A stretch of 64,000 nucleotides of DNA from an uncultured Naasia sp. GTDB taxonomy: Bacteria > Actinomycetota > Actinomycetes > Actinomycetales > Microbacteriaceae. A program made the position numbers and the translations under genes. A model generated the notes under the pieces. It ran no database searches and was not told the origin of the DNA. It was given only the letters and a program-made list of their open reading frames with translations. Position 1 is the stretch's first letter. The number at the start of each line of letters is the position of its first letter. This document shows, in pieces, positions 23,424 to 44,333 of the stretch. The stretch lies in contig CAJYYA010000007.1 of assembly GCA_913778905.1 (NCBI GenBank), positions 1 through 64,000 on the forward strand, given 5' to 3'.

Positions 23424-24140
23424 TCAGCCCCGCGTTACCGCCCGCTTGACCGCCGCCGCCGCCGTCGCGTTCGCGATCAGGTCCGCGCGCTCCATGGCGG
23501 CGTCGACATCCGCCGCCCCCAACCCGAGCAGCTCGTCGGCGACCTTCGGATTCCGTGCCAGAAACGGTCCGTGCAGGTGCGTCCCGATCACGGTCCCGTT
23601 TCGCGCCCCCTCGAAGCCGTTGCCGTTACCCGATCCCGCCTTCACACGTCCAAGCGGCGCCACGGGGGTGCGGGAATCCGACGCGGGAGAGAACCCGCGG
23701 GCGTGGTTCTCATACCCCACGAGGGTCCCGAGATCCGTCTCGACGACGATCTCTCCCGCGGCACGAGCCGGCAGTGCCGTGGCGCGCCCGGATAGAAGGT
23801 CGAGCCCGGCGATCTCACCGCTCTCCAGCTGGATCGTCGAGCCGAGGAGCTCGAAGCCGGTTCCCACACCGATGATGTGCACCCCCGCACCGGCCCAGTC
23901 GGCGAACGCCGCCTCGAACGGCACCAGGGCTTCACGCACCTGCACCAGCGAGGAGTCGACGCCCGACCCGAGCACGACAGCGACCGGCGTGACCGTGGGC
24001 ACGGCATCACCCGGCTGCACGACGACCAGCTCTGCGTCGACGCCCGCCCACCGGGCGCGTCGAGCAAGGACGGCCGCGTTCTGCGCGTCCCCGTTCACGT
24101 CGGTCAGACGGGGGAACAGTTGCAGGATGGTCGCGGTCAT
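23424..24140 (-). CDS. GatD-like class-I amidotransferase-fold protein lacking the catalytic cysteine
   Basis: A 238-residue protein of the GatD/CobB-CobQ glutamine-amidotransferase group. The family hallmarks VGYENHARG at 141-149, PLGRVKAGSGNG and GTHLHGPFLARNP at 186-198 are intact, including His190, the expected catalytic histidine. The nucleophile elbow, ICGGYQ in Staphylococcus GatD, reads VGTGFE at residues 92-97, with Gly93 where the cysteine should be; the protein has no cysteine at all. GatD normally supplies ammonia from glutamine to MurT for lipid II amidation. This copy should be unable to do so. It overlaps the MurT-like gene by four bases, so a complex is likely. Confidence 0.82.
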   Translation of the reverse strand: MTATILQLFPRLTDVNGDAQNAAVLARRARWAGVDAELVVVQPGDAVPTVTPVAVVLGSGVDSSLVQVREALVPFEAAFADWAGAGVHIIGVGTGFELLGSTIQLESGEIAGLDLLSGRATALPARAAGEIVVETDLGTLVGYENHARGFSPASDSRTPVAPLGRVKAGSGNGNGFEGARNGTVIGTHLHGPFLARNPKVADELLGLGAADVDAAMERADLIANATAAAAVKRAVTRG

Positions 24141-25396
24141 ACGCTCAGCCCCAGGTGCGATCGGGTGCGTCTCATCGGATCAGCGGTGAAGACGATGGTC
24201 TTGATGCCGACCTCCGGGTCCGGCAGCGCGAAGAAGCGGTCGAGCGCACCGGGCAGGTCGTCGTCGATCTCGTCGACTCGAACGCCCTGGTACAGCAGCT
24301 GCAAGGCCATCTCCTGCGCTTTCGACCCGCTCACGATGCGCGCGCGCCCGATGCGCGACGAGTCCACCGGCCAGAAGTACGACGGATCGGCGACGTCCGA
24401 CCCCATCGCGACGAACACCTGGTCCAGCCCCGGTTCGAGCTCGTCGACGTTGAGCTGGAAGCTCGCGGGGTTCTGCACGAGCACGAACTCGACCTGCTTC
24501 CCCCGGACGGTGACGACCTCGCCCCGGCCGAAGACGGCGGGCATCGCCGAGACGGCGGCTACCGCGGCCGAGGGGTCGAAACGCTCGGCCAGCACGTCTC
24601 GTGCGGCGGCGAGGGCCGCGGCCGCGTCGACGGCGTAGTGCGCGCCGCGAGCGGGGAGGCCGACCTCGTGAACGGCGCCGTCGAAGGCGATGCTCGCTCG
24701 ACGACCCGACACCGCGGTCACGATGACGCCCCCGTCGGTGCGGTCGTCGGAGGTCTCGGCGTAACCGAGTCCACGGGGCTGGGCGCTCAGCACCTCCTGC
24801 GTCACCCCGAAGTGTTCGACGGGGGCGGCGACACGGTCGGCGAGTCGGCGCAGCATGGCGTCGTCGGCGTTCACGATGACCCGCTGGGTAGCTCGCGACG
24901 CGATCTTCTCCAGCATTCCGACGACCTTCTCCGAGTCGTGGAACCGGTCGATCTGATCGGTCATGACGTTCGTCAGCAGCACCGTCCGAGCGTCGAAGGT
25001 CGAGGAGATGAGCGCCCCGTGTCCCTCATCCATCTCGAGAACGGCGATGTCGGCGTCGATGCGACCGGTCAACGAGGCGCGTTCCAGGAGGGCCGACGTC
25101 AGGCCCTGACTGATGTTCGCCGTGGACGGGTTGGTGAAGACCCGCTCGCCGTGGGCTTCGAGGATCGAGACGAGCATCTTGGTGGTGGTCGACTTCCCCG
25201 ACGAGCCGGAGACGACCACGAGTCCCTGGGGAAAACTCGACAGCACCGATCCGAGGAAGCCCGGGGCGAGCCGGTTCACGACGAGGCCGGGTACGGCGGA
25301 TCCGCCGCCGGGCTTGCGGAGTCGGGCCGCCACACGGGCGGCGCGTCCGATCAGGACCGCCGGGGCCCAGTGCGGTCCGAGGGCACGAGAGGTCAT
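24137..25396 (-). CDS. MurT-like Mur ligase lacking the zinc ribbon
   Basis: A 419-residue Mur-ligase-family enzyme. The nucleotide loop VSGSSGKSTTTK is at residues 62-73, a central ligase segment VLEMDEGHGAL at 119-129, and the C-terminal DUF1727 domain carries DPSYFWPVD at 337-345. MurT activates the alpha-carboxyl of D-Glu in lipid II for amidation. The ribbon of four cysteines that interrupts the middle domain of canonical MurT (here about 200-235) is absent, and the protein has no cysteine. ATG 25396 is the start closest to the first helix. Coupled by a four-base overlap to the GatD-like gene. Confidence 0.85.
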   Translation of the reverse strand: MTSRALGPHWAPAVLIGRAARVAARLRKPGGGSAVPGLVVNRLAPGFLGSVLSSFPQGLVVVSGSSGKSTTTKMLVSILEAHGERVFTNPSTANISQGLTSALLERASLTGRIDADIAVLEMDEGHGALISSTFDARTVLLTNVMTDQIDRFHDSEKVVGMLEKIASRATQRVIVNADDAMLRRLADRVAAPVEHFGVTQEVLSAQPRGLGYAETSDDRTDGGVIVTAVSGRRASIAFDGAVHEVGLPARGAHYAVDAAAALAAARDVLAERFDPSAAVAAVSAMPAVFGRGEVVTVRGKQVEFVLVQNPASFQLNVDELEPGLDQVFVAMGSDVADPSYFWPVDSSRIGRARIVSGSKAQEMALQLLYQGVRVDEIDDDLPGALDRFFALPDPEVGIKTIVFTADPMRRTRSHLGLSV

Positions 25397-25487
25397 CCGT
25401 CCAGTCTCCCAGAGCCGACGGGGAGCCGGGATCACTTCCAGCCGTGCCGCGGACCCCAGCGGCCGCGACCGGTGACCGTCTCGGTCC

Positions 25488-26195
25488 TCAGACCTGCTGC
25501 TCGGCGCGGAGGTGCGCCAGGGCCGTGACGGAGGCCCGGCGGATGTGCTGAGCGCACAACTCGGATGCGCGGGCGGCGTCCCGACGGGCGACCGCCTGGA
25601 CAATCCCCCGGAGTTCGCGGATGACCTCGAGCGGACGCCCCCGCTCGGAGAGGGACGTGGCCCGGAGGACCTGCACCCGGGCCTGGATGCTCTCGAGCAG
25701 CTGTTGGAGGGCGACACTGCGCGCCCCCTCGATGAGCACCACGTAGAACCCGTCCTTGGCTCTCAGCAACTCACCGATCGGGGTGGAGGCCGTGGTCACC
25801 GACTCCAGGTGATCGACCGACGCCGCGAGCCGCTCCACCTGCTCGTCGCTCGCTCTCTCGACGAAACGCTGGACGACGAGGGATTCGAGCGAGGCTCGGA
25901 CCTCGTAGAGGTCGGTGGCGTCGTCGAGGGAGGGAGCCGTGACGATGGCGCCCTTCTGCGGGACGACAGTGACGATCCCCTCGGCGGCCAATTCACGGAT
26001 GGCCTCCCGGATAGTGGTCCGCGAGACCCCGAGGCTCTCGATGAGCTCCCGTTCGACCAGGCGCTGACCGGGCTGCAATTGGAAGTCGAGGATCGCCTGA
26101 CGCAGCGACGCCGTCACTTGCTCCCGCAGCGGGGCCGCCACGCGCCCGAGAGGCTCGGCCACCCATGACGCCGACAGAGAGTTCGTCGTGCTCAT
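25488..26195 (-). CDS. GntR-family transcriptional regulator with FCD domain
   Basis: A 235-residue regulator of the FadR/VanR type. A winged helix-turn-helix spans about residues 22-86 (REQVTASLRQAILDFQLQPG then ERELIESLGVSRTTIREAIRELA), followed by an all-helical FCD effector domain at about 92-225. Such proteins repress catabolic operons until a small carboxylate or similar ligand binds. It is encoded at the distal end of the ten-gene minus-strand catabolic run, 70 bases after it. An operator-like sequence in the gap at 26230-26240 suggests autoregulation. It is the natural candidate for controlling the locus up to 42.5 kb. Confidence 0.88.
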   Translation of the reverse strand: MSTTNSLSASWVAEPLGRVAAPLREQVTASLRQAILDFQLQPGQRLVERELIESLGVSRTTIREAIRELAAEGIVTVVPQKGAIVTAPSLDDATDLYEVRASLESLVVQRFVERASDEQVERLAASVDHLESVTTASTPIGELLRAKDGFYVVLIEGARSVALQQLLESIQARVQVLRATSLSERGRPLEVIRELRGIVQAVARRDAARASELCAQHIRRASVTALAHLRAEQQV

Positions 26196-26229
26196 CGTTT
26201 CCCCTCACCCCTCGAATCGAACCGACTGA

Positions 26230-26240
26230 TCATCGGACAA
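26230..26240. promoter_or_regulatory. Candidate GntR operator (imperfect)
   Basis: On the minus strand the sequence reads TTGTCCGATGA, eight of eleven positions identical to TTGTCTGACAA upstream of the ABC importer at 36403. It misses one position of the FadR-subfamily consensus TNGTNNNACNA. It lies 35 bases upstream of the gntR start, suitable for autoregulation. Evidence is the match alone. Confidence 0.35.
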
Positions 26241-26265
26241 TTTAGCGCAGCCCCGAACCGGAGGC

Positions 26266-27213
26266 TCAGCGGTCGGCATCCGCGTCGTGCGCGAAGGCCG
26301 GTCGGGGCGCCGCAGTGACCGGACGACTCCCTCCGTCCGCCGCCACCACCCGTGCGATCTCGGTGTGGTCGGCGGAGCCGGGCAGACGCTCGTAGGCGCT
26401 CTCCCACAGTGCGACGGCGGCAGCGGCGAGAGATGTCGGAGTCCCGTTCGCTTCGGCGAGACCCCGGGCGATCTTCATGTCCTTCAGCATGAGGGCCAGC
26501 CCGAATCCCGAGTCGTACCCGCCGGGGAGGACGAAGTTCGGCCACTTGTTATCGGTCGAGCCGCTGCGGCCGCTCGAGGTGTTGAACACCTGGAGCATGA
26601 CCTCGGGGTCGAGCCCGAACGCGACCCCGGCTTCCATCGCCTCCGAGGTCGCCCAGAGGTGGGTCGCCGACAGCAGATTGTTGAGCGCTTTGATGGCGTG
26701 ACCCGAGCCGACGGCCCCGCACCGCACGGGCTTGCCGAGCACTTCGAGCGCGGGGAGCACCCGGTCGACGGCACCCGGCTCTCCCCCGACCATGATCGTG
26801 AGCGCGCCCCGCTCGGCCCCCTTCACCCCGCCGGACACGGGAGCGTCCACCAGCGAGATCCCCGCCTTGGCCAGCTCGTCCGCGAGGGCCCGGGTTCGGA
26901 GGGGCTCCGAGGAGCTCATGTCGACGACGATGTCACCGGTCGCGAGCGCGCCACCCTCGACCAATTCGTCGACCACCGCGCCGACGATGGCGGAGTTCGG
27001 CAGCATCAGGACCACGATGTCGGCGACCTCGGCCGCCTCCACCGCTGACCGGCACCCGGTGGCGCCGAGCCCGGCGGCACGTTCGACGGCCGCTTCCGAC
27101 ACGTCGAACGCACGTACTTCGAACCCGTTCTCGACGAGCAGTCGGGTCATGGGAGTGCCCATGTTGCCCAGACCGATGAACGCGACGGTGGCTCCGCTGC
27201 GCTCGTCAGACAC
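26266..27213 (-). CDS. NAD(P)-dependent beta-hydroxyacid dehydrogenase (HIBADH family) 1
   Basis: A 315-residue protein of the 3-hydroxyisobutyrate dehydrogenase / tartronate-semialdehyde reductase family. The Rossmann motif FIGLGNMG is at residues 12-19, the substrate loop DAPVSGGVKGAERG follows the nucleotide domain, and GSGHAIKALNNLL contains the catalytic lysine. It would interconvert a beta-hydroxyacid and a semialdehyde. GTG 27213 overlaps the upstream CMD gene by eight bases. It is the last enzyme gene before gntR in this operon and a paralogue of the gene at 28026-28943; the two are clearly distinct in sequence. Confidence 0.87.
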   Translation of the reverse strand: MSDERSGATVAFIGLGNMGTPMTRLLVENGFEVRAFDVSEAAVERAAGLGATGCRSAVEAAEVADIVVLMLPNSAIVGAVVDELVEGGALATGDIVVDMSSSEPLRTRALADELAKAGISLVDAPVSGGVKGAERGALTIMVGGEPGAVDRVLPALEVLGKPVRCGAVGSGHAIKALNNLLSATHLWATSEAMEAGVAFGLDPEVMLQVFNTSSGRSGSTDNKWPNFVLPGGYDSGFGLALMLKDMKIARGLAEANGTPTSLAAAAVALWESAYERLPGSADHTEIARVVAADGGSRPVTAAPRPAFAHDADADR

Positions 27214-27628
27214 GCGCACTGTCCGAGTCGGTCGTCGCTGCGCGCACCTCGTTGATGACGCCTTCCGCGATCCGGAAGGACTCGAGGGCCGCCGGGACCC
27301 CCGCGTAGATGGCGGTCTGCAGGAGTGTCTCCTGGATCTCGTCCTCGGTGACGCCGTTGGTGAGGGCGCCCCGCACGTGGACGGCGAGCTCATGCGACCT
27401 GTTCAACGCGGTCAGCATGGCGATGTTGAGAAGGCTGCGGGTGCGCAACGGCAGGCCGTCACGCGTCCAGACGGTGCCCCAGCAGTACTCCGTGACCAGG
27501 TTCTGCATGGGACGGGCGAATTCGGAGACGTTGCCGAGCGAGCGATCGACGTGCGCCCGACCGAGGACCGCGCGGCGCACCGCGAGCCCGGCGTCGAAGG
27601 TCTCGCTGTGGGTGGTGTCAGAGGTCAT
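27206..27628 (-). CDS. Carboxymuconolactone decarboxylase (CMD) family protein
   Basis: A 140-residue all-helical CMD-domain protein in the PcaC-like subgroup rather than AhpD, because no CxxC redox pair is present. The conserved core runs from EFARPMQNLVTEYCWGTVW (about 36-54) through LPLRTRSLLNIAMLTALNRSHEL to TEDEIQETLLQTAIYAGVPAALE. Relatives decarboxylate gamma-carboxymuconolactone, but many stand-alone members in sugar-acid loci have unknown roles. Its stop overlaps HIBADH1, and its start overlaps the cupin stop by one base (TGATG), so it is part of one coupled transcript. Confidence 0.88.
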   Translation of the reverse strand: MTSDTTHSETFDAGLAVRRAVLGRAHVDRSLGNVSEFARPMQNLVTEYCWGTVWTRDGLPLRTRSLLNIAMLTALNRSHELAVHVRGALTNGVTEDEIQETLLQTAIYAGVPAALESFRIAEGVINEVRAATTDSDSARV

Positions 27629-28029
27629 CAGTGTTCCGTTTCATCGAGGGGAGCCAGGTAGTCGCTCTCCGCGACCTCGCTGTCCCAGTTGGTGGGGCCG
27701 AGTGAGATCGCGGTGTGCGTCATGAACGAGTCGGGTGCCGCGCCGTGCCAGTGCCGCTCCCCCGGCGGGACCCAGACGGTGTCTCCTGCTGAGATGACGA
27801 CGGCGGGCGCACCTTCGCTCTGCACGAGTCCCCGGCCGGCCACGACCTCGAGGATCTGCCCCTCGGTGTGGCTGTGCCAGTAGGTCCGCGCGCCCGGGTT
27901 GAAGGTGACGGTGTTGATGGTGACCCCGTCGGTGGCGGGCATGGTGAGGAAGTTGAAGACCTGGCCGGTGAATTGCGATCCCGTCTTCCCGGCCGTCCCG
28001 TTGCGTTCGGCCGCTCGTACGAGTCTCAT
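27628..28029 (-). CDS. Single-domain cupin protein
   Basis: A 133-residue cupin. Motif 1 gives metal ligands His52 and His54 (YWHSHTEGQ) with a glutamine or glutamate nearby, motif 2 gives His93 and His95 (PPGERHWHG). The fold and size match small cupins that accompany CMD proteins and act as isomerases, dioxygenases or lactone-processing enzymes. Which of these applies is unknown. Adjacent genes on both sides overlap it (four bases with HIBADH2, one with CMD), pointing to stoichiometric production with them. Confidence 0.85.
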   Translation of the reverse strand: MRLVRAAERNGTAGKTGSQFTGQVFNFLTMPATDGVTINTVTFNPGARTYWHSHTEGQILEVVAGRGLVQSEGAPAVVISAGDTVWVPPGERHWHGAAPDSFMTHTAISLGPTNWDSEVAESDYLAPLDETEH

Positions 28030-28943
28030 GAGTCGGCTCCATCGCTCGCGGCGGCGTCACTCAGCCTGGTTCCACCGGACAGGTCGCCCAGGGCGTCGAC
28101 CACCGTGTTGCTGATGTCGGCGGCGCGCCCCGTGGCGATGGCGGACCCGAAGCTCGCGAGCGGTCCGGATGCGTGGAGTCCCGCGACACCGAGCCCCGCG
28201 ATCAGGTCGGTGTAGAGCAGGACGTCCTTCATCATGAGCGAGTTCGTGAGCCCGCCCTTCAGGTAGTCGCCGTGGACGATCTTGGGGAATCGGTTGAGAG
28301 TCGCGAAGTTCACGCCGGAGCTGGTGTTGAGCACGCCGAGCAATGCGTCCATGTCGAGGCCGGCCTTCTTGCCTGCCACCATCACTTCGGACGTCGCGGA
28401 GAGGGCCACCGCGTTGAGGAAGTTGTTGAGCAGCTTCGTCGTGTGGCCGGACCCGCTCGCGCCCATGTGGAAGACGTGGGAGGCGAAGTGATCGAGTGCC
28501 TCCTGCGCTTCGCCGAGTGCGTCCGCATCGCCACCCACCATGAGGGTGAGTGCGCCCTTCTCGGCCGCGGCGGCTCCTCCTGAGATTCCGGCGTCCAGGT
28601 AGTGGGCGCCCTTCTCGGCGAGGGCCGCGGCGATCCGGCGGGTCGAGTCGGGCGCAGCGGTGGAGAGATCGACGACGATCTGGCCGACGCGAGCGTTGGC
28701 GAGTACGCCGTCCTCGCCGAGCACCACGGCCTCGACGACACGGCTGTCGGGAAGGCTGAGGAGGACGAGGTCCGCCCGTCGGGTGACGTCACCCGCCGAC
28801 TCGGCCGCCACAGCCCCCGCGGCGGCGATGTTCGGAGTGTGCGCGTCGAAGCCGACGACCTCCACCCCCGCTCCCGTGATGCACCGCGTCATGCGGCCAC
28901 CCATGTTGCCCAAACCGATGAATCCGATCGTGCGCCCGCTCAT
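28026..28943 (-). CDS. NAD(P)-dependent beta-hydroxyacid dehydrogenase (HIBADH family) 2
   Basis: A 305-residue enzyme with the cofactor motif FIGLGNMG at residues 8-15, the loop DAGISGGAAAAEKGALTLMVGG and GSGHTTKLLNNFL containing the catalytic lysine. Same family as the protein encoded at 26266-27213 but divergent enough to have its own substrate. The ATG at 28943 is preferred to an upstream frame because it begins directly at the first beta strand and overlaps the SDR stop by four bases. Probably reduces a semialdehyde or oxidises a beta-hydroxyacid produced in the pathway. Confidence 0.87.
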   Translation of the reverse strand: MSGRTIGFIGLGNMGGRMTRCITGAGVEVVGFDAHTPNIAAAGAVAAESAGDVTRRADLVLLSLPDSRVVEAVVLGEDGVLANARVGQIVVDLSTAAPDSTRRIAAALAEKGAHYLDAGISGGAAAAEKGALTLMVGGDADALGEAQEALDHFASHVFHMGASGSGHTTKLLNNFLNAVALSATSEVMVAGKKAGLDMDALLGVLNTSSGVNFATLNRFPKIVHGDYLKGGLTNSLMMKDVLLYTDLIAGLGVAGLHASGPLASFGSAIATGRAADISNTVVDALGDLSGGTRLSDAAASDGADS

Positions 28944-29803
28944 GCGTCGCGCCCCTTCCAGTCGTCTCCGTAGAGCGCGCTGTCCACGCGATCCGTGTCC
29001 CAAGCTCCCGCGCCGCCCGAGGGGCGGACGGTGTTGACGATCGTCGCGCCGCCGTCGGCCGAGACGATCTGTCCCGCCATGTAGGACGCATCCTCCGACA
29101 GGAGGAATGCGGCGACGGCGGCGATCTCCTCGGGCGACCCCGCGCGTCGAAGAGGGGTCGTCGAGGCACGTCGCACCATGTCGTTCTTGCCGCCCGACGT
29201 GCTCGCCGCGGCGGCGAACAACTCGGTCGGAACGATCCCGGGGGCGACCCCGTTGACCCTGATACCCAATGGCCCGCCGTACATCGCGGCGCTGTGGATG
29301 AGGCCCGCGACCGCGTGCTTGCTCACCACGTAGGGCAGGAGGTCGGCACTACCGGTGAGACTGGCGATCGACGCGGTGAGGACGATCGCGCCCGTGCTCC
29401 GCTGGTCGCGGAAGCACCGGAAAGCGGCCTGCAGTCCGAGGAGCTGCCCCCGGACGTTCACGGCCATGACGCGCTCGAAGTCTTCGATCGCGAGATCGGG
29501 GAGCGCGTCGAAACTGCCGAAGATGCCGGCGTTGAGGTGGTGCAGATCGAGACGTCCGAACGCGGACAGACCGGCATCCACATACGACTGCACCCCTTCG
29601 GCGGAGGAGATGTCTGCGCGGACGGCGACGGCAGGACCGGGGAGTCCGCCTGCGACACCGGCCGCGGCATCCCCGTCGATGTCCACGACGACCACCGACG
29701 CTCCCTCACGGGAGAGCCGTTCGGCCGACGCGCGTCCGAGTCCCCCACCCGCGCCGGTGACGACGGCGACCTGTCCGTCGAAACGTCGTGAATCGGAACT
29801 CAT
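28940..29803 (-). CDS. SDR-family oxidoreductase
   Basis: A 287-residue classical SDR. TGAGGGLG at residues 16-23 binds the nucleotide; the acidic DID after strand 2 (41-43) favours NAD over NADP. The NAG motif is at 91-93, the catalytic serine near 145-148, and YxxxK at 158-162. The C-terminus has the usual GQIVSADGGA. The last 25 residues extend past the typical end. It probably oxidises a hydroxyl to a ketone or the reverse within the sugar or polyol pathway of this operon. Four-base overlaps link it to both neighbours. Confidence 0.88.
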   Translation of the reverse strand: MSSDSRRFDGQVAVVTGAGGGLGRASAERLSREGASVVVVDIDGDAAAGVAGGLPGPAVAVRADISSAEGVQSYVDAGLSAFGRLDLHHLNAGIFGSFDALPDLAIEDFERVMAVNVRGQLLGLQAAFRCFRDQRSTGAIVLTASIASLTGSADLLPYVVSKHAVAGLIHSAAMYGGPLGIRVNGVAPGIVPTELFAAAASTSGGKNDMVRRASTTPLRRAGSPEEIAAVAAFLLSEDASYMAGQIVSADGGATIVNTVRPSGGAGAWDTDRVDSALYGDDWKGRDA

Positions 29804-30609
29804 CGCTTCCCTCCCACAGTGGCGGCCAACTCGGTCAGCGGACCCGTGACAGGCGTGAACCTCGACAGGGTCGCCGGATCGTGACCCGATACGACGTGAC
29901 GGATCTCGCCTGACGCCTCGAGTCGGCGGATGACCGCGAAGCTGTCGTACATCTCGACGAGATCGGCGACCGAGGTGAACACGATGTCGCGCTCGTACTC
30001 CTCGTAGTAGTGGACCGCGTCGGAGGCAAGGAGCACCGTCCCGTCGGCGGTGTCGACGAACACGATGCTCTGGCCGGGGGTGTGACCGCCGATCTCACGC
30101 ATCCGCACGCCGGGCCGGATCTCGCGCTCCCCGTCGATCAGCTCGACGCGGCCGCGGGCGGCGGCGTCTCGGAGATGGGAGATCTCGGAGTCCTCGACGG
30201 AGTGCGCGAACAGCGGCTTGTCGGCGTGCGGTCCCGTCCAGAAGTCGAACTCCTTCCGCGACATGACGATGTTCGCGTCGGGGAAGAGCGGAAGGTTGCC
30301 GATGTGGTCGTAGTGCCCGTGGGTCACGATGACGGTCGGCGCCGTGCCGGGCTCCACACCCGCGAGGCGGAGCGCTTCGGCCGGATCGATGAGCAGAGTC
30401 CGTCCCCGACTCTCACCCCCGTGGCGCGAGAATCCGCAGTCGACGAGGAGACGCTCTTCTCCGTCGCTCAGCACCCAGAAGAAGTAGTCCATCCCGATGG
30501 GACCGTCCGGCTCGTGATACAGGCCGTAGTTCAGGTAGACGTCGCTCCGCGTCGTCTGACGGGTGCCGTACTTGACGATGGTGACCGTCCAGTGGCGCGC
30601 CTCAGCCAC
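29800..30609 (-). CDS. Metallo-beta-lactamase-fold hydrolase (AHL-lactonase-like)
   Basis: A 269-residue MBL-fold protein. The zinc signature HxHxDH is at 97-102 (THGHYDHIGN), with a further histidine in EIGGHTPGQS, an aspartate in LLASDAVHYYEE and a C-terminal histidine in VVSGHDPA. The pattern resembles N-acyl-homoserine lactonases, which open lactone rings. In this catabolic context hydrolysis of a sugar lactone is at least as likely as quorum quenching; that is inference. The GTG start at 30609 overlaps the GMC gene by eight bases. No signal peptide. Confidence 0.86.
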   Translation of the reverse strand: MAEARHWTVTIVKYGTRQTTRSDVYLNYGLYHEPDGPIGMDYFFWVLSDGEERLLVDCGFSRHGGESRGRTLLIDPAEALRLAGVEPGTAPTVIVTHGHYDHIGNLPLFPDANIVMSRKEFDFWTGPHADKPLFAHSVEDSEISHLRDAAARGRVELIDGEREIRPGVRMREIGGHTPGQSIVFVDTADGTVLLASDAVHYYEEYERDIVFTSVADLVEMYDSFAVIRRLEASGEIRHVVSGHDPATLSRFTPVTGPLTELAATVGGKR

Positions 30610-32197
30610 GGGTCGCCTCCCAGATCTTGTCGGCGGCACGCAGCGCGAGCGCCTGCACCGTGTGCGTCGGGTTGACCGACGCTCCCGTCGGGAAGCTGGA
30701 ACCGTCGACCACGTAGAGGTTCGGAACGTCGTGAGCGCGGTTGTTCGCATCGACGACCGAGGTCGCCGGATCGGACCCCATACGTGCCGTGCCGAGGAGA
30801 TGCCAGCCGAGGATCGAGTCGAACCCCGTCGTGCGCACCGATTCAGCGCCCGCGGCGAAGGCCAATTCGGTCGCGCGACGAACTCCGTCGGCGCCCAGCC
30901 GCTTCGAGTTCTCGCTCAGCGTGTAATAGGTCCTCACGCCGGGCAGCCCGAAGTCGTCGAGGTTCTCCTCATCGAGTTCGACGCGGTTGTGCTCCTCCGG
31001 TGCGTCGTCGCCGCAGACCCAGATGGTGGCCTCGTGGTTGAGGTGATGCTCGAGCGCCTCGTGGTGCCCTTCGCCCCACGGAGCGGTCGCCAAGGCCGTG
31101 TTGAGAGGCGAGTACCCCCGCATCGCCACCATGGTGAACCCGCGCTTGTAGTCGTTGGCGGGGTCGGTCTCGTAAAAGTGTCGGGAGGAGACGGTGCCGC
31201 CCCAAGCGCCGTGGTCCGCGTCGGTGGGCTCGGCGAAGCGGCCGATCACCATGGTCTGCACGTGGGGCATGAAGTTCTTGCCCACCTGCCCGCTGCTGTT
31301 GGCGAGACCGTTCGGGAAGCGCGCCGATCGCGACATGAGGAGCAGACGAGGGGTCCCGATCCCGTTTCCGCACACCACGACGGTCTTGGCCTCGGCCCGC
31401 CGAAGCGCACCCGACTCGTCGTAGTAGAGCGCGCCGGTGGCCGCACCGTCGTCGTCGACCGTGATCTCGCGCACCCGCGCCTGAGTGCGCAACCGCGCCC
31501 CGGCCTCGAGCGCCTCCGGCCAGTAGGTGTTCGAGGGGAGCGACAGAGCTCCGCTCGGACAACCGAAGGCGCAGAAACCTCGGTTGACGCAGGCGGGCCG
31601 CCCCTTGTAATCCTCGGAGATGAGGGCCTGCGACTGAGCCCACCAGTACCACCCGAGCTTGTCGAAGCCGTCGACCCACCGGTCGCCCTGGCGGCCGATG
31701 GGGATGGGAGGGAGGGGCACCTCGGGGCGACCGGGCTGCACGGGGTCGCCGCCGGCTCCCGACATGCCCATCATCCGCTCGTTCACCTCGTAGTACGGAA
31801 CGAGGTCCTCATATGAGATGGGCCAATCGACCCCGAAGTCGTCCAGCGATTTGGCGCGGAAGTCCGAGGGCTGAAGCCGCCAGAAATGCCCGCCGTACCC
31901 GATGGCGCTGCCTCCGACGGCCGAGTACATGTAGACGTCGACGGGGTTCTCACCGAGGTTGGTGACCGGATAATCCGCGGGCCCCCGGCGTTTGCCCGGG
32001 CTCGCGTTCCAGTAGTGGCGGCCGCGGACCTCCCAATCGGCGTGGTTCTTCGGGATCTCCTCCTCGGGCACCCAGTCGCCCTGCTCCAGGCACAGCACGT
32101 CGAGGCTACGCCGGGCGAGGCTCCAGACGACGGCGGCGCCCGCGGCCCCCGCCCCGATGACCAGGACGTCGGCGGTTTCGGTCTGCAGCTCGGTCAT
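30602..32197 (-). CDS. GMC-family FAD-dependent oxidoreductase 1
   Basis: A 531-residue flavoenzyme. The FAD motif GAGAAG is at residues 15-20. The C-terminal GMC domain contains the catalytic-site His466 (GWHLLGTARMG) and Asn509 (SVNPTHT). Cysteines 203, 209 and 213 in CVNRGFCAFGC form a C-x5-C-x3-C pattern like the cysteine cluster of the large subunits of membrane gluconate, fructose and glucose dehydrogenases, where it holds an iron-sulfur cluster; that role here is inference. It overlaps by four bases the gene for a subunit-3-like protein, its probable partner. Likely oxidises a sugar or polyol hydroxyl. Confidence 0.9.
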   Translation of the reverse strand: MTELQTETADVLVIGAGAAGAAVVWSLARRSLDVLCLEQGDWVPEEEIPKNHADWEVRGRHYWNASPGKRRGPADYPVTNLGENPVDVYMYSAVGGSAIGYGGHFWRLQPSDFRAKSLDDFGVDWPISYEDLVPYYEVNERMMGMSGAGGDPVQPGRPEVPLPPIPIGRQGDRWVDGFDKLGWYWWAQSQALISEDYKGRPACVNRGFCAFGCPSGALSLPSNTYWPEALEAGARLRTQARVREITVDDDGAATGALYYDESGALRRAEAKTVVVCGNGIGTPRLLLMSRSARFPNGLANSSGQVGKNFMPHVQTMVIGRFAEPTDADHGAWGGTVSSRHFYETDPANDYKRGFTMVAMRGYSPLNTALATAPWGEGHHEALEHHLNHEATIWVCGDDAPEEHNRVELDEENLDDFGLPGVRTYYTLSENSKRLGADGVRRATELAFAAGAESVRTTGFDSILGWHLLGTARMGSDPATSVVDANNRAHDVPNLYVVDGSSFPTGASVNPTHTVQALALRAADKIWEATRG

Positions 32198-32757
32198 GCG
32201 GAGACGCTCCTGTATCGGTCGGCACGCTCGCCGATGGTGATGAGACGGTCGGAGGGGAACGGCTTCATGGCCTTGCCCACAACGGTGTTGGTGACGTCGA
32301 AGCCCGTCCGCTCCCGCACGATGTCCTGCACGGCAGGGGTCCTGTAATAGGCCTCGTAGGTCAATTCGAAGACGACCCCGAACGCCTCGGGAGCGCCGGT
32401 CTTCTCGATCGTCTTCAGGATCTCGGTCTGCTCGGCGGGCGAGCATGCGGAGAAGCCCTTGCCATGGAGAGATCGGGCGGCCCGTTCCGCCGCGTCGATG
32501 CCGGCGAGCACCACTGGACGAAGGGTCGGCGCCTTGACGAGGATCGCGTCGATGTACGCGACCGCGTCGGTCTCTCCGGCGGAGGGCCAGATGTCGGTCC
32601 CCGGGATGAGTCGACGCACCCAGGCGTCGAGAACGTCGATCCGCTGCGTGTCGAGGACGCGGAGCGTTCCGACCTCCTCGGTGGTGACGTACGTGCGCCC
32701 CATGAGCGGCGCATACGGGTTGGCGCCGGAGGCGCCTTCGCGGTGATCGAAGGCCAT
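32194..32757 (-). CDS. Gluconate 2-dehydrogenase subunit 3-like protein 1
   Basis: A 187-residue helical protein of the gluconate-2-dehydrogenase subunit 3 family, judged from the pattern TLRVLDTQRIDVLDAWVRRLIPGTD at about 31-55, the DAVAYIDAIL stretch and GFSACSPAEQTEILKTIE. In classical enzymes this small subunit assists maturation and export of the GMC subunit. No twin-arginine or Sec signal is present, so the complex should stay in the cytoplasm. Its stop overlaps the GMC1 start by four bases. It is the second such protein in the operon; each GMC gene has its own. Confidence 0.72.
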   Translation of the reverse strand: MAFDHREGASGANPYAPLMGRTYVTTEEVGTLRVLDTQRIDVLDAWVRRLIPGTDIWPSAGETDAVAYIDAILVKAPTLRPVVLAGIDAAERAARSLHGKGFSACSPAEQTEILKTIEKTGAPEAFGVVFELTYEAYYRTPAVQDIVRERTGFDVTNTVVGKAMKPFPSDRLITIGERADRYRSVSA

Positions 32758-32764
32758 TGCTCAG

Positions 32765-32785
32765 GCCTCCCGTCGGGACGGGAGG
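32765..32785. other. Perfect 9-bp inverted repeat in the only operon gap
   Basis: CCTCCCGTC and GACGGGAGG (32766-32774 and 32777-32785) with a two-base centre lie in the 111-base gap between the two GMC modules. It may be an RNA hairpin, a processing site or a protein-binding palindrome that splits expression of the two modules. Position and symmetry are the only evidence. Confidence 0.35.
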
Positions 32786-32868
32786 ATCCCGGATCGAGGT
32801 GACGACAACACTGTCTTCCTTTCAAGAGGAGCGGGACCGGTCCGCGCCGGCGGGGCGCGACCGGAGAA

Positions 32869-33330
32869 CTAGGGGGTGGGACGGTAGATGGGGCCCCGAG
32901 AGGTGACCGGCGCGACCAGTTCGGCGAGGTCATCGTCGAAACGGATGGGTATCGCCGACCGCTTCTTGTAGCCGACGCGCTCGGCTACGACCGGGTCGAG
33001 GAAATAGGCCGCCGTCACGGCGTCTGCCAGGCCGCGGAGCTCGGGGATGCCACGGGAGTCGAGTTCCGCGAAGTCGGCCGGGAGGGGCTCTTCGATCGCG
33101 GCGAGCCCCGCCTCGACGACGTCCAGGAGGTCGGGACGAACCGACAGGACGCGGTCGATCTGCACACCGTGCACGTCCGCGTCGGACGCTTTCGGCATGT
33201 CGGCCGAGGCGGGGATGAGCAGGTCGGCCACCCGGGCGAGCTTGGCCCTGTCCTCGGCGCTCAGCCGCGCGGCGGCGGAATGGGCGGCTCCGGCGGGACC
33301 CACCCCGATGGTGATGTCGACGCCGCTCAC
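32869..33330 (-). CDS. Gluconate 2-dehydrogenase subunit 3-like protein 2
   Basis: A 153-residue helical protein. The core, SAEDRAKLARVADLLIPASADMPKASDADVHGVQIDRVLSVRPDLLD at about 24-69, is the standard subunit-3 pattern with a histidine in the DVHG stretch. There is no export signal. Its GTG start follows from a four-base overlap with the stop of the GMC2 gene at 33327, which fixes the pair GMC2 / small subunit. The sequence differs strongly from the paralogue at 32194-32757, so the two modules are not a recent duplication. Confidence 0.72.
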   Translation of the reverse strand: MSGVDITIGVGPAGAAHSAAARLSAEDRAKLARVADLLIPASADMPKASDADVHGVQIDRVLSVRPDLLDVVEAGLAAIEEPLPADFAELDSRGIPELRGLADAVTAAYFLDPVVAERVGYKKRSAIPIRFDDDLAELVAPVTSRGPIYRPTP

Positions 33331-34958
33331 GAGGCCACCTTCTGCGATCGAGCACTCTCGACGGCGTGCTCGGCGGCACGCAGGGAGAAGGCCGCGATCG
33401 TGGGCGTCGGGTTCATACCGGACGAGGTGGGCCAGGTGCTGCCGTCGACGATCAGCAGGTTGGGTACGTCGTGCGCTCTGCCCCACTGATCGACGACCGA
33501 ACTCGAGGGGTCATCGCCCATGGTCGCGGTCCCGAGCAGGTGCCATCCGGTCTCGCGGATCATCGGGGCGACGATGGTCTCCTTCGCCCCCGCCTCGCGC
33601 AGGGATTCTTGGGCGCGCGCGACGTTGAAGGCGAGCAGGTCCTTCGTGTTCTGGGAGGTCTTGTAGATCATCTTCACGCCGGGGATCCCGTCTCGGTCGA
33701 GCCGCGAATGATCCAGCTCGACGCGGTTGTGGTCCTCGGGGAGATCCTCCGCGACGATCCCCCATGCGACGGAGTGCCCCAGCCGATCCTTGACGGTCCG
33801 ATGGAAGTCGTCTCCCCAGATCGGTCGCCCACCCCAGGGGAAGGGTGCCGTCATGGACTGCGGCCCGCCGGTGGGGGTGACGTTCCACTTCGCGCCGCGC
33901 ACGAAGCCGCGTTCCTTGACCGTCTCGTAGAACTCGAGCGAGTAGACGGGTTGACCCCACACGCTCTTCCACGGGTCCAGTTCGTCCTCGAACACGCCCA
34001 CCACCGAGGCGAAGGGGTGCATCATGAGCCGCTTCCCGACCTGGCCCGAGCTGTTGGCGAGTCCGTTCGGGAACCGCTTGCTCGTCGAGAGTTGCAGCAG
34101 TCGCGGCGTTCCCAGACCGTTCGCGGCGACGACGATGAGGTCGCCTTCCTGGCGGTGGGTCCTCCCGTCACGGTCGATGTAGACGACGGCGGTGGCCAGC
34201 CCGCGGGAGTCCGTCTCGATCTCCTGCGCCGTCGCACCCGTCACGAGTCGCGCTCCCTGGGCGAGCAGATCGGGCCAGTGGGTGATGTCGGGCGAGGCCT
34301 TCGACTTGTTGATGCACCCCCACATGCAGGCGCCGCGCTGAACGCAGGCGCCCTGGTTGCGATAGTCCTGCGTCGCGATGGCGTTGCTTCCGGGCCACCA
34401 GTGCCAGCCGAGCCGGTTGTGCGCCTCAGCCATCATCCTTCCGGCCGGACCCACCGGCGCGGCGCGCATGGGATAGGAGGTGATGTCGGGGAAGGCGGGG
34501 TCGCCCGGGTACCCCGAAACCCCGAAGTCGGCTTCGATGCGGTCGTAGTAGGGGCTGAGGTCCTCGTAGCTGAGCGGCCAGTCGTCGGCCACCCCGTCGA
34601 GCGATCGAACCCGGAAATCGGATGGCATGAGCCGCATCCAGATTCCGGCATACATGACCGTGCTGCCGCCGACGCCGTTCCAGATGAGCGGTTCGACGTC
34701 CGAGTGGGACGTGTCGATCGGATAGTCGGCCGGACCACGGCGAACGTTGGGAAGCGGATTCCACTGCTTGCCGGCACTCAACTCGAGGTACTCGTCGGCG
34801 ACGTGCGAGGTGCGGTAGTCGGGCCAGTCGCCCTGCTCGATGCACACCACCGAGTAGCCGCCCTCGACGAAGCGGCGGGCGGCGACCGCCCCGGCGGGCC
34901 CCGCCCCGACGATCACGACGTCGGCCCGGTTCGATCCGGTCGCAGACTTCTGCATCAC
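33327..34958 (-). CDS. GMC-family FAD-dependent oxidoreductase 2
   Basis: A 543-residue flavoenzyme, first gene of the ten-gene minus-strand operon. GAGPAG at residues 18-23 binds FAD; His473 (GWHLLGTATMG) and Asn516 (MNPTPT) are the active-site pair. Cysteines 205, 211 and 215 in CVQRGACMWGC repeat the C-x5-C-x3-C pattern of GMC1. Family: large subunits of gluconate/2-keto-sugar dehydrogenases; substrate unknown. The start is GTG 34958 or the adjacent ATG 34955. A promoter with an overlapping operator lies about 100 bases upstream, and the divergent plus-strand genes share that region. Confidence 0.9.
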   Translation of the reverse strand: MMQKSATGSNRADVVIVGAGPAGAVAARRFVEGGYSVVCIEQGDWPDYRTSHVADEYLELSAGKQWNPLPNVRRGPADYPIDTSHSDVEPLIWNGVGGSTVMYAGIWMRLMPSDFRVRSLDGVADDWPLSYEDLSPYYDRIEADFGVSGYPGDPAFPDITSYPMRAAPVGPAGRMMAEAHNRLGWHWWPGSNAIATQDYRNQGACVQRGACMWGCINKSKASPDITHWPDLLAQGARLVTGATAQEIETDSRGLATAVVYIDRDGRTHRQEGDLIVVAANGLGTPRLLQLSTSKRFPNGLANSSGQVGKRLMMHPFASVVGVFEDELDPWKSVWGQPVYSLEFYETVKERGFVRGAKWNVTPTGGPQSMTAPFPWGGRPIWGDDFHRTVKDRLGHSVAWGIVAEDLPEDHNRVELDHSRLDRDGIPGVKMIYKTSQNTKDLLAFNVARAQESLREAGAKETIVAPMIRETGWHLLGTATMGDDPSSSVVDQWGRAHDVPNLLIVDGSTWPTSSGMNPTPTIAAFSLRAAEHAVESARSQKVAS

Positions 34959-35058
34959 GTGAACACCCTCGTTCGTTCGATGGACATCGAGGCGGAACGC
35001 CCGTTCGATCGGACTCCGAGTGAGATCCGCCTACCCGGTGATCCTCGACTTCTGTACG

Positions 35059-35088
35059 ATCGTATGACGAAGATCAAGAGAAGGTCAA
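35059..35088 (-). promoter_or_regulatory. Candidate promoter of the minus-strand catabolic operon
   Basis: Read on the minus strand, TTGACC (35083-35088) is followed after 18 bases by TACGAT (35059-35064), a good match to a sigma-70-type promoter in high-GC actinobacteria. Transcription would start about 95 bases upstream of GMC2. The -10 region is covered by the palindrome at 35060-35070, so a bound repressor would block the polymerase. Confidence 0.5.
35060..35070. promoter_or_regulatory. FadR-subfamily GntR operator in divergent promoter region
   Basis: TCGTATGACGA is a perfect inverted repeat (TCGT-N3-ACGA) and fits the FCD-type GntR consensus TNGTNNNACNA. It sits between the divergently transcribed GMC2 and HbpS-like genes and overlaps the leftward -10 box. 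The sister site TCGTAGGACGA is at the SMP-30 promoter (42516-42526). Confidence 0.6.
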
Positions 35089-35144
35089 CGTCGAACCGAC
35101 CGCGTGTCGATCGGGCGACGACCACTCGAGAAAGGACGTCGACG

Positions 35145-35591
35145 ATGACGAACACCGCCCCACCGGCCCGCACCCAGAGGGTGCTCTCCTACCAGGAAGC
35201 CCGACGTCTACTCGACGCGGCCCTCGCCAAAGCCGATGAGATCGGCGTGCCCGCGAGCATCGCCGTACTCGACGTGACGCGCGAGATCGTCGCCTTCGCT
35301 CGCCAGGACCGCGCCCCCGTGCTCACCGGCGAGGTCGCGACCGCCAAGGCCTTCACCGCCGCCTCACTGCGTCAGCCATCGGGCGGACTCTCCGAGCCCA
35401 CACGGGACGGAGGGGCGTTCGCCGGCCTCGCTCATGCCTCGACCCGCGGCATCGTCACCTTCTCCGGAGGCTTTCCGCTCATGCACCAGGGCGACGTGAT
35501 CGGCGCCGTCGGCGCAAGCGGCGGATCGCTCGACGAGGACGACACGATCGCCGGGGCGGCTATCGCCCTCTTCGAGAGCTGGGCCCGATGA
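35145..35591 (+). CDS. HbpS/GlcG-family (DUF336) protein
   Basis: A 148-residue protein of the GlcG/HbpS family, recognised by SYQEARRLLDAALAKADEIGVPASIAVLD at about 15-43 and the conserved end VIGAVGASGGSLDEDDTIAGAA. Members bind heme or corrinoids or accompany glycolate and diol oxidation operons; an export signal is absent. In this locus it may protect or assist the flavin oxidoreductases, which is inference. ATG 35145 follows AAAGGA. It is coupled to the next SDR by a four-base overlap. Confidence 0.85.
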   Translation: MTNTAPPARTQRVLSYQEARRLLDAALAKADEIGVPASIAVLDVTREIVAFARQDRAPVLTGEVATAKAFTAASLRQPSGGLSEPTRDGGAFAGLAHASTRGIVTFSGGFPLMHQGDVIGAVGASGGSLDEDDTIAGAAIALFESWAR

Positions 35592-36343: not shown

Positions 36344-36360
36344 CGCGCCGCGTTTCGGTC

Positions 36361-36388
36361 TTGCGCGATCCGGAACCGCGCGTATAGC
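36361..36388 (+). promoter_or_regulatory. Candidate promoter of ABC importer operon
   Basis: TTGCGC (36361-36366) and TATAGC (36383-36388) are 16 bases apart. The predicted start point near 36395 is immediately followed by the palindrome at 36403, as expected for roadblock repression. Confidence 0.45.
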
Positions 36389-36402
36389 GTTGGGTTGTCA
36401 GG

Positions 36403-36413
36403 TTGTCTGACAA
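36403..36413. promoter_or_regulatory. Operator palindrome TTGTCTGACAA
   Basis: A perfect inverted repeat (TTGTC-T-GACAA) that fits TNGTNNNACNA of FCD-type GntR regulators. A second TTGTC half-site lies just upstream at 36395-36399. A related imperfect site lies before the gntR gene at 26230-26240. Confidence 0.6.
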
Positions 36414-36431
36414 TCTTACAAAGAGGTAAGC

Positions 36432-36629: not shown

Positions 36630-36709
36630 GACGCCCTGCGCGTCCCGGCGCTGCTCGCGTCACGGCTCGAGGAGCCGATCACAGTTCCACTCAATGAGGA
36701 GATAGAGAA

Positions 36710-41444: not shown

Positions 41445-41468
41445 AGCCATTCGGCACGCTCCATACGA

Positions 41469-42633: not shown

Positions 42634-44010
42634 TCACTCCAGGTAGTCGCGCAGCGACTGCGAGCGGGACGGGTGACGCAGCTTCGCCATCGTCTTCGAC
42701 TCGATCTGGCGGATGCGCTCGCGCGTCACGCCGAAGGTGTCGCCGATCTGGTCGAGGGTCTTCGGCATACCGTCGCCGAGACCGAAGCGCATGCGGATCA
42801 CGCCGGCCTCGCGCTCGCTCAGGGAGTCGAGCAGGCTCTCGAGCTGTTTCTGCAGCATCGTGAAGCCGACCGCGTCGGCGGGCACCACGGCCTCGGTGTC
42901 CTCGATGAGGTCACCGAACTCGCTGTCGCCGTCCTCACCGAGGGGCGTGTGCAGCGAGATGGGCTCTCGGCCGTACTTCTGCACCTCGATGACCTTCTCG
43001 GGGGTCATGTCGAGCTCACGGGACAGCTCTTCCGGCGTGGGCTCACGACCGAGGTCCTGCAGCATCTGACGCTGGACGCGGGCCAGCTTGTTGATGACCT
43101 CGACCATGTGCACGGGGATGCGGATCGTGCGGGCCTGGTCGGCCATGGCGCGCGTGATGGCCTGACGGATCCACCAGGTGGCGTAGGTCGAAAACTTGAA
43201 GCCCTTGGTGTAGTCGAACTTCTCGACGGCACGGATGAGGCCCAGGTTGCCTTCCTGGATCAGGTCGAGGAACTGCATTCCGCGGCCGGTGTAGCGCTTA
43301 GCCAGCGAGACGACGAGGCGGAGGTTCGCACCGAGCAGGTGGCTCTTGGCACGCTGACCGTCCTTCGCGACCCAGCGCAGCTCTCGGATGAGCTCCTTCG
43401 ACATACCCGTCGTGTCGGCGAGCTTGTCCTCGGCGAACAGACCGGCCTCGATGCGCATGGCCAGCTCGACCTCTTCGGCCGCGTTCAGCAGCGGAACCTT
43501 ACCGATCTGCTTCAGGTAGTCCTTGACCGGGTCGGCGGTGGCGCCGGTGATGGCGGTCGAGTAGACGGGGACCTCGTCCTCGTCGTCGGCCATCGAGAGC
43601 ACGAGCGCGCCCTGCGGGAGCGTCTCTTCGGCGGCGGCGACGGCGGCGAGGGCCGGCTTGGCGTCGTCGGACTCATCGTCGTCGGCGACCTCGGCGGCAT
43701 CGTCCGTGTCGGGCTCGTCGGCGATCTCGACCTCGTCGACGCCCTCTTCGTCCTCATCGGGCTCGTCGTCGTCGGCCTTCTTGGTCGTGGCCTTCTTCGT
43801 GGTGGCCTTGGCGGTGGTCTTCGCACCGGCCTTCGGCGCTGCCTTGGCGGCAGGGGTCTTCGCCGCGGTCGTCTTGGCGGCAGCGGTCTTGGTGGAGGCG
43901 GCACGCTTCGCAGGAGCGCGCTTGGCGGGCGCCGCGGCGGTCTCGGTCTCGGCGGTCTCGGGCTCGGCGGTCTCGGGCTCGGCGACGGCGGTCGCGGTCT
44001 TCGAAGTCAT
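42634..44010 (-). CDS. rpoD: Primary RNA polymerase sigma factor
   Basis: A 458-residue sigma-70 protein. Residues 1-150 are a low-complexity extension of alternating Ala/Lys/Pro blocks ([21 protein letters not shown]) and then an acidic stretch. Region 1.2 starts at [16 protein letters not shown], region 2 includes [37 protein letters not shown] with the -10 helix, region 3 follows, and region 4 ends with the -35 reading helix [19 protein letters not shown]. It directs housekeeping transcription. The AGAAAGG ribosome site is nine bases upstream. Long charged N-terminal extensions of this kind are usual in actinobacterial SigA/HrdB. Confidence 0.96.
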
Positions 44011-44333
44011 CGGTGCACCTTTCTTCTGACGTGGGCCCTCTCATCGAGGGTCGTAGCTAGCGGGTGGATGAGGTGCATGTGGCGTCGCATCCCACCTGTG
44101 CGGACGCCCCATGAACGCGCTAGGGGCACGTCGAAACGGTGTGGGAGACCGTTTCCGGACAGCATGAGGACCCATGTCAAGTCCTCGTCGAAGCCGCGAC
44201 CGACCTCCGGGGAGGCGATCCGCTTCACCAGAGGAGGTGAAAGGGTCCTTTCTGCAATTATTGCACGCTCGCGGCCAGGCTCATTACCAGTTGAGCCGGT
44301 CGGCGGGCAAGAGGCCCACCTGAGAACTGCTCG
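44011..44333. other. 323-base upstream region of rpoD
   Basis: Contains the rpoD ribosome site and presumably its promoters, which I could not place with confidence. Two weak inverted repeats are visible: CCCTC...GAGGG near 44037-44051 and AAACGG...CCGTTT near 44133-44153. No coding region or RNA gene is supported. The MFS gene ends just beyond it on the same strand. Confidence 0.4.

Follow-up and report, generated by a model that had tools for sequence, protein, structure and literature searches.

We analysed a pair of adjacent genes for MurT- and GatD-like proteins in a 64,000-nucleotide stretch of DNA (hereafter the window; contig CAJYYA010000007.1, assembly GCA_913778905.1) from an uncultured Naasia sp. 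of the family Microbacteriaceae. The GatD-like protein lacks the catalytic cysteine and the tyrosine that plugs the ammonia channel, and the MurT-like protein retains its ligase residues. Pairs of this kind form a single clade, normally lie directly after the principal sigma factor gene sigA, and are exchanged at that place, repeatedly and within genera, for an unrelated CofE-like ligase. In group-B peptidoglycan, the cross-bridge is carried by the alpha-carboxyl of D-Glu. We consider it moderately probable that the pair is a glutamine-independent ligase derived from MurT/GatD, one of several interchangeable ligases that would add a bridge amino acid to D-Glu in this wall type.

Residues lost and kept in the gene pair

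The two genes overlap by 4 bp (24137-24140), and their products belong to the families named in an earlier note, which had been made from the letters of this DNA. The MurT-like protein matched MurT of Streptococcus pneumoniae (6fqb) with an expect value (E) of 1.9e-24, leaving the zinc ribbon region of 6fqb unmatched, and the Pfam domain Mur_ligase_M at 1.8e-14; MurT_C was borderline (24.8 bits, cut-off 25) and above the cut-off in a second search (27.8 bits). Its predicted structure (predicted local distance difference test, pLDDT, 90.4) has the MurT proteins of Staphylococcus aureus, Streptococcus pyogenes and S. pneumoniae among its best folds in the PDB, followed by MurF and MurE. The GatD-like protein matched S. 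aureus GatD (5n9m; E 5.8e-13) and the Pfam domain GATase_3 (1.3e-13). NCBIfam equivalog cut-offs were missed by both proteins, with 93.9 of 800 bits for MurT and with 66 of 450 and 47.5 of 400 bits for GatD. Judged by sequence, the pair is a member of the MurT/GatD family that has the MurT domains and a class-I glutaminase but neither the catalytic cysteine nor the four-cysteine ribbon. The source genome contains exactly one MurT_C match, a point in favour of the earlier note's interpretation.

The MurT/GatD complexes of the three cocci (6gs2, 6fqb, 9sq9) resemble the window pair in their adjacent genes for a Mur ligase and a class-I glutaminase, and also in the P-loop, the acidic metal site, the triad histidine and aspartate, and Arg126. 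The window pair differs in lacking the nucleophile cysteine, the channel tyrosine and the ribbon, in having Tyr and Asp for the asparagines of the adenine pocket, and in its normally sigA-adjacent position. We searched a panel of 150 Microbacteriaceae genomes, drawn evenly by genus, with the window MurT-like protein and aligned the loci. Clades I and II, with which we group some basal and reduced forms, comprise the ribbonless, cysteine-less pairs; type III pairs are ribbonless with the cysteine, type IV pairs have both ribbon and cysteine, and type V pairs combine a ribbon-type MurT with a GatD devoid of cysteine and histidine. Groups for the residue counts were assigned from the MurT tree. 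Because types III and IV are defined by the presence of the GatD cysteine, cysteine counts in them are no test, which is provided instead by the tree and by the channel tyrosine.

In our alignment with 5n9m, the cysteine of the S. aureus TICGG motif (Cys94 in the literature) falls on Gly93 of GVGTG, the codon of which was checked. This replacement and the complete absence of cysteine from both window proteins had been reported in the earlier note and are confirmed here; some relatives have stray cysteines at other sites. None of the 94 rows from clades I and II and the basal forms has cysteine at position 93; in the same alignment, all 49 rows from outside the family do. By these counts, and by the 33 of 33 GatDs in the named loci described below, the cysteine-less state of the clade is far beyond chance. 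In S. aureus, the GatD-C94G exchange is reported to abolish glutamine-dependent amidation (PMC3266927), and we predict that the window pair has lost glutamine-dependent amidation of D-Glu. Position 16, equated with S. pneumoniae Tyr30 through the alignment of the window GatD with 5n9m, is a tyrosine in 66 of 66 cysteine-bearing rows but never in the 94 rows of the ribbonless, cysteine-less clade. In S. pneumoniae this tyrosine plugs the ammonia channel (PMC6085368). Cysteine and tyrosine have thus been lost together. The histidine of GTHLHGP, which the earlier note described as conserved, is retained in the window pair and, as His190, in 28 of 29 clade I rows, but in only 32 of 58 clade II rows (lost in 26). 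Arg126 is kept in 28/29 and 55/58 rows, respectively.

In the MurT-like protein, Lys68 of the P-loop, the metal-binding acidic residue Glu121 and the triad residue Asp337 are invariant across all 93 rows of the clade, and both members of the composite triad, His190 from GatD and Asp337 from MurT, are found in the window pair. The adenine pocket is altered: position 254 is Tyr in 29/29 clade I and 53/57 clade II rows, with a few basal rows mixed, and position 257 is Asp in 29/29 and 56/57, whereas the cysteine-bearing rows have Asn at 254 in 60/66 and at 257 in 65/66 cases. Two asparagines including N267 line this pocket in S. aureus MurT, and an N267Y exchange inactivates the enzyme (PMC6113224). 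Clade I carries further changes in the C-terminal part of MurT (Lys308 to Gln, Trp340 to Tyr, Asp343 to Pro). The conservation pattern therefore indicates that the ligase machinery has been retained, and that the glutaminase, the channel gate and the base pocket have been altered (Table 1). No CxxC pair is present in the window MurT-like protein, in line with the missing ribbon of the earlier note. Ribbon loss can however be ruled out as a mark of repurposing, as the CxxC pair is also absent from 38 of 49 cysteine-bearing MurTs from outside the family (taken from the first 50 such loci).

Table 1. Genes and diagnostic codons of the MurT/GatD-like pair, and sigA, in the window
Feature	Position	Strand	Remarks
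murT-like gene	24137..25396	(-)	419 aa, ATG start; carries the Mur ligase middle and MurT C-terminal domains but lacks a zinc ribbon
gatD-like gene	23424..24140	(-)	238 aa, ATG start; class-I glutaminase family without nucleophile Cys
MurT Lys68 codon	25193..25195	(-)	P-loop (GSSGKSTT), invariant; alignment
MurT Tyr254 codon	24635..24637	(-)	at S. aureus Asn264, position counted on the alignment by the analyst; alignment
MurT Asp257 codon	24626..24628	(-)	at S. aureus Asn267 of the adenine pocket, position counted on the alignment by the analyst; alignment
MurT Asp337 codon	24386..24388	(-)	at S. aureus Asp349, third triad residue, retained; alignment
GatD Gly93 codon	23862..23864	(-)	at the catalytic Cys94 position of S. 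aureus GatD; alignment, codon checked
GatD His190 codon	23571..23573	(-)	equivalent of catalytic His189; alignment
GatD Asn16 codon	24093..24095	(-)	Tyr in Cys-bearing GatD (S. pneumoniae Tyr30, ammonia-channel plug); alignment
sigA	42637..44013	(-)	principal sigma factor gene; usually adjoins the pair on its upstream side, ~17 kb away here

Distribution and descent of the pair

Ribbonless, cysteine-less pairs of clades I/II occur in 95 of the 150 panel genomes (including two with partial matches, G038 and G099), type V pairs in 12, and strong CofE-like matches in 21; type III alone is found in 11, type IV alone in 3 and none of these in 8, including G022 and G146 with a completeness of just 87%. 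On sequence grounds, the ribbonless, cysteine-less pair is old and family-wide, though not universal. In a MurT tree of 144 rows (LG+G4, quick, midpoint-rooted), all such MurTs of Microbacteriaceae (95 rows) form one clade with a Shimodaira-Hasegawa-like approximate likelihood ratio test (SH-aLRT) support of 100 and with zero cysteine-bearing rows inside it. The nearest branch consists of ribbonless, cysteine-bearing MurTs. These proteins, from other actinobacterial families and from Leucobacter, share the absence of the ribbon with the window pair; unlike it, they come with Cys93, Tyr16 and mostly Asn254 and Asn257, and are presumably part of a working amidotransferase. Type V MurTs form a separate clade (support 96) and appear as a second, separate cysteine-less lineage, examples of which (L116-L124) lie mostly directly after sigA. 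Detailed placements in the tree are unsure because of long branches. We left out L031 (same genome as L047) and the loci L179, L350 and L353 (no GatD in reach), and used the cut contigs L133 and L134 in part only.

Outside the family, 79 genomes in a sample of 248 from the order match MurT_C, and all 79 loci were retrieved. GatD was found at 76 of them (49 + 27), with both the cysteine and the channel tyrosine in 76 of 76. A second search of the order with MurT alignment A1 gave, among the matches listed, no further long MurT from outside the family and two fragments (G339, G372). The earlier note had asked whether the C-to-G change and the ribbon loss are shared by group-B species and absent from group-A relatives: the cysteine is absent from the clade (0/94) and present in the GatDs examined from other families of the order (76/76), and the ribbon is lost outside the family as well. 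Both a cysteine-less and a cysteine-bearing pair are present in the genomes G066, G054, G124 and Leifsonia aquatica (locus pairs L054/L094, L056/L100, L050/L109 and L262/L327), as if amidation and the new role coexisted.

Ratios of nonsynonymous to synonymous substitution (dN/dS) among three genus-mates are 0.18-0.23 for murT and 0.39-0.48 for gatD, and the wider ranges are 0.18-0.33 for murT and, over seven pairs, 0.39-0.63 for gatD; with dS near 1 these values are approximate. Ratios below 1 together with the invariant residues rule out decay of the pair, which the earlier note had likewise judged not to be simply decaying.

Exchange with a CofE-type ligase at the sigA locus

An upstream-neighbour cluster common to 100 loci (types I, II and V plus three untyped) was identified as sigA from three of them. 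The SigA end is located just upstream of MurT in 28/29 clade I, 54/57 clade II, 5/7 basal and 9/12 type V loci, and in 0/14 type III and 0/3 type IV loci. We inspected 20 post-sigA regions without the pair and found a gene of the CofE/F420-ligase family (PF01996, E 1.6e-12) in 14, directly after sigA in 13 and after an aminotransferase gene in one (L228). The same 20 regions contain genes for an ATP-grasp protein (PF14397; 13 regions), an alanine-racemase-like protein (9), a class-III aminotransferase (2) and MurJ (1), followed by ParE in most. As for the other six, L226 (G075) has a CofE-like gene by a separate protein search, L237 reaches the contig end, and four have none.

The predicted structure of the CofE-like protein (pLDDT 84.6) has significant matches to CofE only (2phn; E 9.8e-10; template modelling score 0.60), and its direct sequence match to a solved CofE is weak (E 0.1). 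CofE, the F420-0:L-glutamate ligase (PF01996; 2phn, 7uld), joins an amino acid to a carboxyl using GTP; the entry title of 2phn describes it as amide bond forming. The CofE-like replacement has this fold, is unrelated to MurT, and lies beside sigA, mostly without CofH of the F420 pathway. Of the 21 CofE-like genomes, 2 have a CofH match above the cut-off, and two further long matches fall short of it; of five MurT genomes, one is above the cut-off (G042) and another below it (G140). A role in cofactor F420 synthesis is thus unlikely for the CofE-like protein in most of these genomes, and has mostly been ruled out.

A CofE-like protein search of the 150 genomes gave 21 strong matches (E 8e-79 or better). 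A MurT/GatD-like pair occurs in none of the 21 genomes concerned; G148 among them has a marginal match to the GatD profile (7.2e-6). By coordinates, 19 of the 21 genes come just after sigA, while in G044 the sigA contig ends and in G094 the genes are on different contigs. Kinship is accounted for in these mutual-exclusion counts only through switches within genera. Eleven genera show two states, and in nine of them both sides adjoin sigA. Clade II and CofE-like genes occur in one genus in g7, g9, g13, g58, g76 and g84, type V and CofE-like genes in g59, clade II and type V in g38 and g68, and clade I and type V in g43 and g49. Such recurrent swaps at a single position are good evidence that the ligases share a role.

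Scanning named genomes for the SigA tail yielded at least 80 loci, 61 of which have a tail 96-100% identical to the query and were taken as Microbacteriaceae; one of the 61 is titled Stenotrophomonas maltophilia, one Cellulomonadaceae and one Actinomycetes bacterium. Among the matches listed, sigA is followed by a CofE-like gene at 25 loci, by MurT at 33, by both at 0 and by neither at 3. By the same listing, 32 of the 33 MurT loci are ribbonless and 1 is type V, the nucleophile cysteine is present in 0 of 33 GatDs, an ATP-grasp gene accompanies 23/25 CofE-like and 0/33 MurT loci, and ParE is reached in 24 and 30, respectively. The 150-genome panel has an ATP-grasp gene beside 5 of 12 type V pairs and 2 other pairs. 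Named MurT loci include those of Rathayibacter, Cryobacterium, Agromyces, Leifsonia, Herbiconiux, Agreia, Curtobacterium, Pseudoclavibacter, Microcella putealis, Salinibacterium soli and Microbacterium aurantiacum. The CofE-like group takes in the majority of Microbacterium loci (testaceum, oxydans, schleiferi, kyungheense, azadirachtae and others), with further ones from Gulosibacter chungangensis, Pseudolysinimonas yzui, Salinibacterium xinjiangense and Microcella alkaliphila. In the 41 of 61 named genomes that were searched, a full-length MurT elsewhere was found in 0 of 17 with a CofE-like gene (L246 has a partial Mur-ligase match). Taken together, the locus lends strong circumstantial support to the idea of an amino-acid ligase. 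The contig titled S. maltophilia (L276) carries a Microbacteriaceae-like sigA-CofE-ATP-grasp-ParE locus and probably represents assembly contamination.

In the window itself, the interval between the pair and sigA (25397-42636, read to about 30 kb) encodes a GntR/FCD regulator, 3-hydroxyisobutyrate-type dehydrogenases and a carboxymuconolactone decarboxylase. The SigA tail of the genus-mates L003 and L047 lies within the same short locus as murT, and it thus seems that a catabolic stretch has been inserted here. The GntR neighbour (25488-26195) was ruled out as a general upstream partner, since the conserved upstream gene in relatives is sigA; a search of 34 genomes (29 without the pair) with the GntR protein matched in 7, at positions not set against sigA, and is weak evidence alone. 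Genes for MurJ, racemase and class-III aminotransferase are present at some sigA loci. The class-III aminotransferase found near sigA beside CofE-like or MurT genes (L228, 545-1864; L221; L304; L266) possibly has a role in diaminobutyrate supply. A racemase-like gene stands in the sigA interval of 16/25 CofE-like and 14/33 MurT named loci, among the matches listed. Counted per genome, 7 of 8 CofE-like genomes have 2-4 racemases, and a single one is present in the window genome, in 5 of 6 genomes of clade I and in 13 of 14 from other families; these counts do not support an extra racemase as a universal partner.

Proposed function, alternatives and wall chemistry

We infer the substrate, nucleophile and nucleotide of the pair from these observations. 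The conserved residues suggest that the MurT-like protein still activates a carboxyl as an acyl phosphate, most likely, as in its relatives, the alpha-carboxyl of D-Glu in lipid I/II. The GatD-like protein, devoid of nucleophile and tyrosine plug, would serve as a docking or activating partner, and the attacking amine would most likely be a group-B cross-bridge amino acid, such as D-diaminobutyric acid (D-Dab) or D-ornithine (D-Orn). MurF and MurE, the next-best folds for the MurT-like protein, attach an amino acid or a dipeptide to the carboxyl of a wall precursor; unlike the window pair they have no GatD partner and use UDP precursors as substrates. S. aureus MurT with GatD-C94G is reported to keep ammonia-dependent amidation of lipid II at pH 8.5, with MurT still needing GatD (PMC3266927). 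A cysteine-less complex can thus use an external amine, the main options being ammonia or an amino acid. We favour an amino acid, given that the pair trades places with a CofE-type ligase and has lost the plug of the ammonia channel, and given the chemistry of group-B walls. The earlier note had proposed that MurT activates this carboxyl for a bridge amino acid, with GatD turned into a binding or specificity partner. Its overall interpretation is partly supported: it gains from the loss of glutaminase and channel residues, the intact ligase residues of MurT and the one-locus interchange with a CofE-type ligase, and applies to a pair that is not present in every member of the family.

Among the alternatives, we think it unlikely that the pair makes wall amides with a different acceptor or donor, for example acting on the position-3 diamino acid or a bridge amino acid or joining two bridge residues, and not on D-Glu. 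The fast-changing GatD and the clade I changes near the MurT C terminus would fit such a role, and the ATP-grasp and racemase neighbours suggest that several steps are handled at the locus. On the other hand, the MurT core is retained, and the characterised MurTs act on D-Glu in the work reported (PMC6113224, PMC6085368, PMC3266927).

That the pair still makes D-isoglutamine, from free ammonia, is in our estimate decidedly unlikely. Carbamoyl phosphate synthetases that lost their cysteine do use free ammonia, the S. aureus C94G complex does so as well, and Arg126, His190 and Asp337 are retained to the extents given above. Yet the channel tyrosine has been lost along with the cysteine, the pair and a CofE-type ligase, a member of a family that adds amino acids, exclude each other at a shared locus, group-B walls have their bridge on the alpha-carboxyl of D-Glu, and some genomes have a cysteine-bearing pair in addition. 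Moreover, the S. aureus enzyme is described as using neither ammonia nor NH4Cl at pH 7.5 (PMC3266927). We regard it as very improbable that both subunits are relics with a structural or regulatory role, which the fast-evolving GatD and its apparent absence from two small genomes might suggest, given the invariant P-loop, metal-site and triad-aspartate residues, the low dN/dS of murT and the takeover of the locus by another ligase.

Several observations weigh against an amino-acid ligase acting at one interchangeable locus, among them the ammonia-dependent activity of the S. aureus C94G complex. Weak CofE matches (E about 1e-31 to 1e-33) lie beside a type V-like MurT in G053 and G123 and elsewhere in the genome in G147. 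In L125 and L126 (G123 and G053), the distant CofE-like gene adjoins a divergent MurT/GatD pair, with sigA adjoining too in G123, and both ligase kinds can thus share one place. The switch at sigA is not seen in two of the eleven genera, as the CofE-like gene of G094 (g13) is on another contig and no SigA lies beside either pair in g68. Glaciihabitans RYN_57 has a type V pair at sigA plus a cysteine-less pair elsewhere, and two 1.1 Mb genomes (L098, L099) have a cysteine-less MurT beside sigA with no GatD detected next to it, hinting that GatD may not be required. The three named loci with neither ligase are from Leucobacter (L285, L288 and L305, the SigA end not being located in the last), and these genomes have a ribbonless MurT elsewhere with a cysteine-bearing GatD. 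Together with the 8 panel genomes that have no ligase of these kinds and 14 more with only a cysteine-bearing pair (types III/IV), they indicate that walls in this family are made without the cysteine-less pair and that other routes exist. Finally, D-Orn is found both in Microbacterium (PMC10757982), which is mostly CofE-like, and in Agreia (PMC5945732), which has MurT; there is no simple split of states, and the identity of the diamino acid alone is not supported as the determinant.

Published chemotypes show no one-to-one mapping onto ligase type. Microbacterium has D-Orn, L-Lys or Dab depending on the species (PMC10757982), Subtercola a B2-gamma wall with Dab and Agreia L-Dab with D-Orn (PMC5945732), Cryobacterium and Glaciihabitans Dab and Salinibacterium Lys with Orn (PMC7033078, Table 3), and Rhodoluna D-Ala-D-Dab (PMC4156110). 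Glycine is present at about 1 per peptide in Subtercola vilae (PMC5945732), Rhodoluna (PMC4156110) and Cryobacterium inferilacus, and there is much of it in M. albopurpureum. Glycine content as a determinant is suggestive only. Bridge formulas are Gly-D-Orn in Microbacterium and D-Orn in Curtobacterium. Outside the family, amino acids on D-Glu are a feature of Erysipelothrix, Eubacterium limosum and Micrococcus luteus. Term searches of the open-access literature found no paper on an enzyme that loads the bridge onto D-Glu, most subscription literature being outside their scope.

If the pair is indeed a bridge-loading ligase, the sigA-parE interval may be a cross-bridge locus in which a cysteine-less MurT/GatD, a type V pair and the combination of CofE-type ligase and ATP-grasp protein substitute for one another. 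We advance more tentatively, and with some doubt, the wider idea that this locus is modular, its three ligase kinds swapping and setting the wall chemotype. The MurT/GatD-like pair would then join a D-diamino acid straight to D-Glu, the CofE-type ligase and the ATP-grasp protein would insert glycine or another residue first, and the Asn-to-Tyr/Asp changes would reflect a new nucleotide preference. Group-B peptidoglycan is a long-standing taxonomic marker, and the genes described here would, if our reading is right, be candidates for loading its bridge onto D-Glu. Variation of wall chemotype inside genera could then be explained, and the pair would illustrate a route from glutamine amidotransferase to amino-acid ligase via loss of the glutaminase. 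Congeneric species that differ in their ligase at this one locus provide a natural test set.

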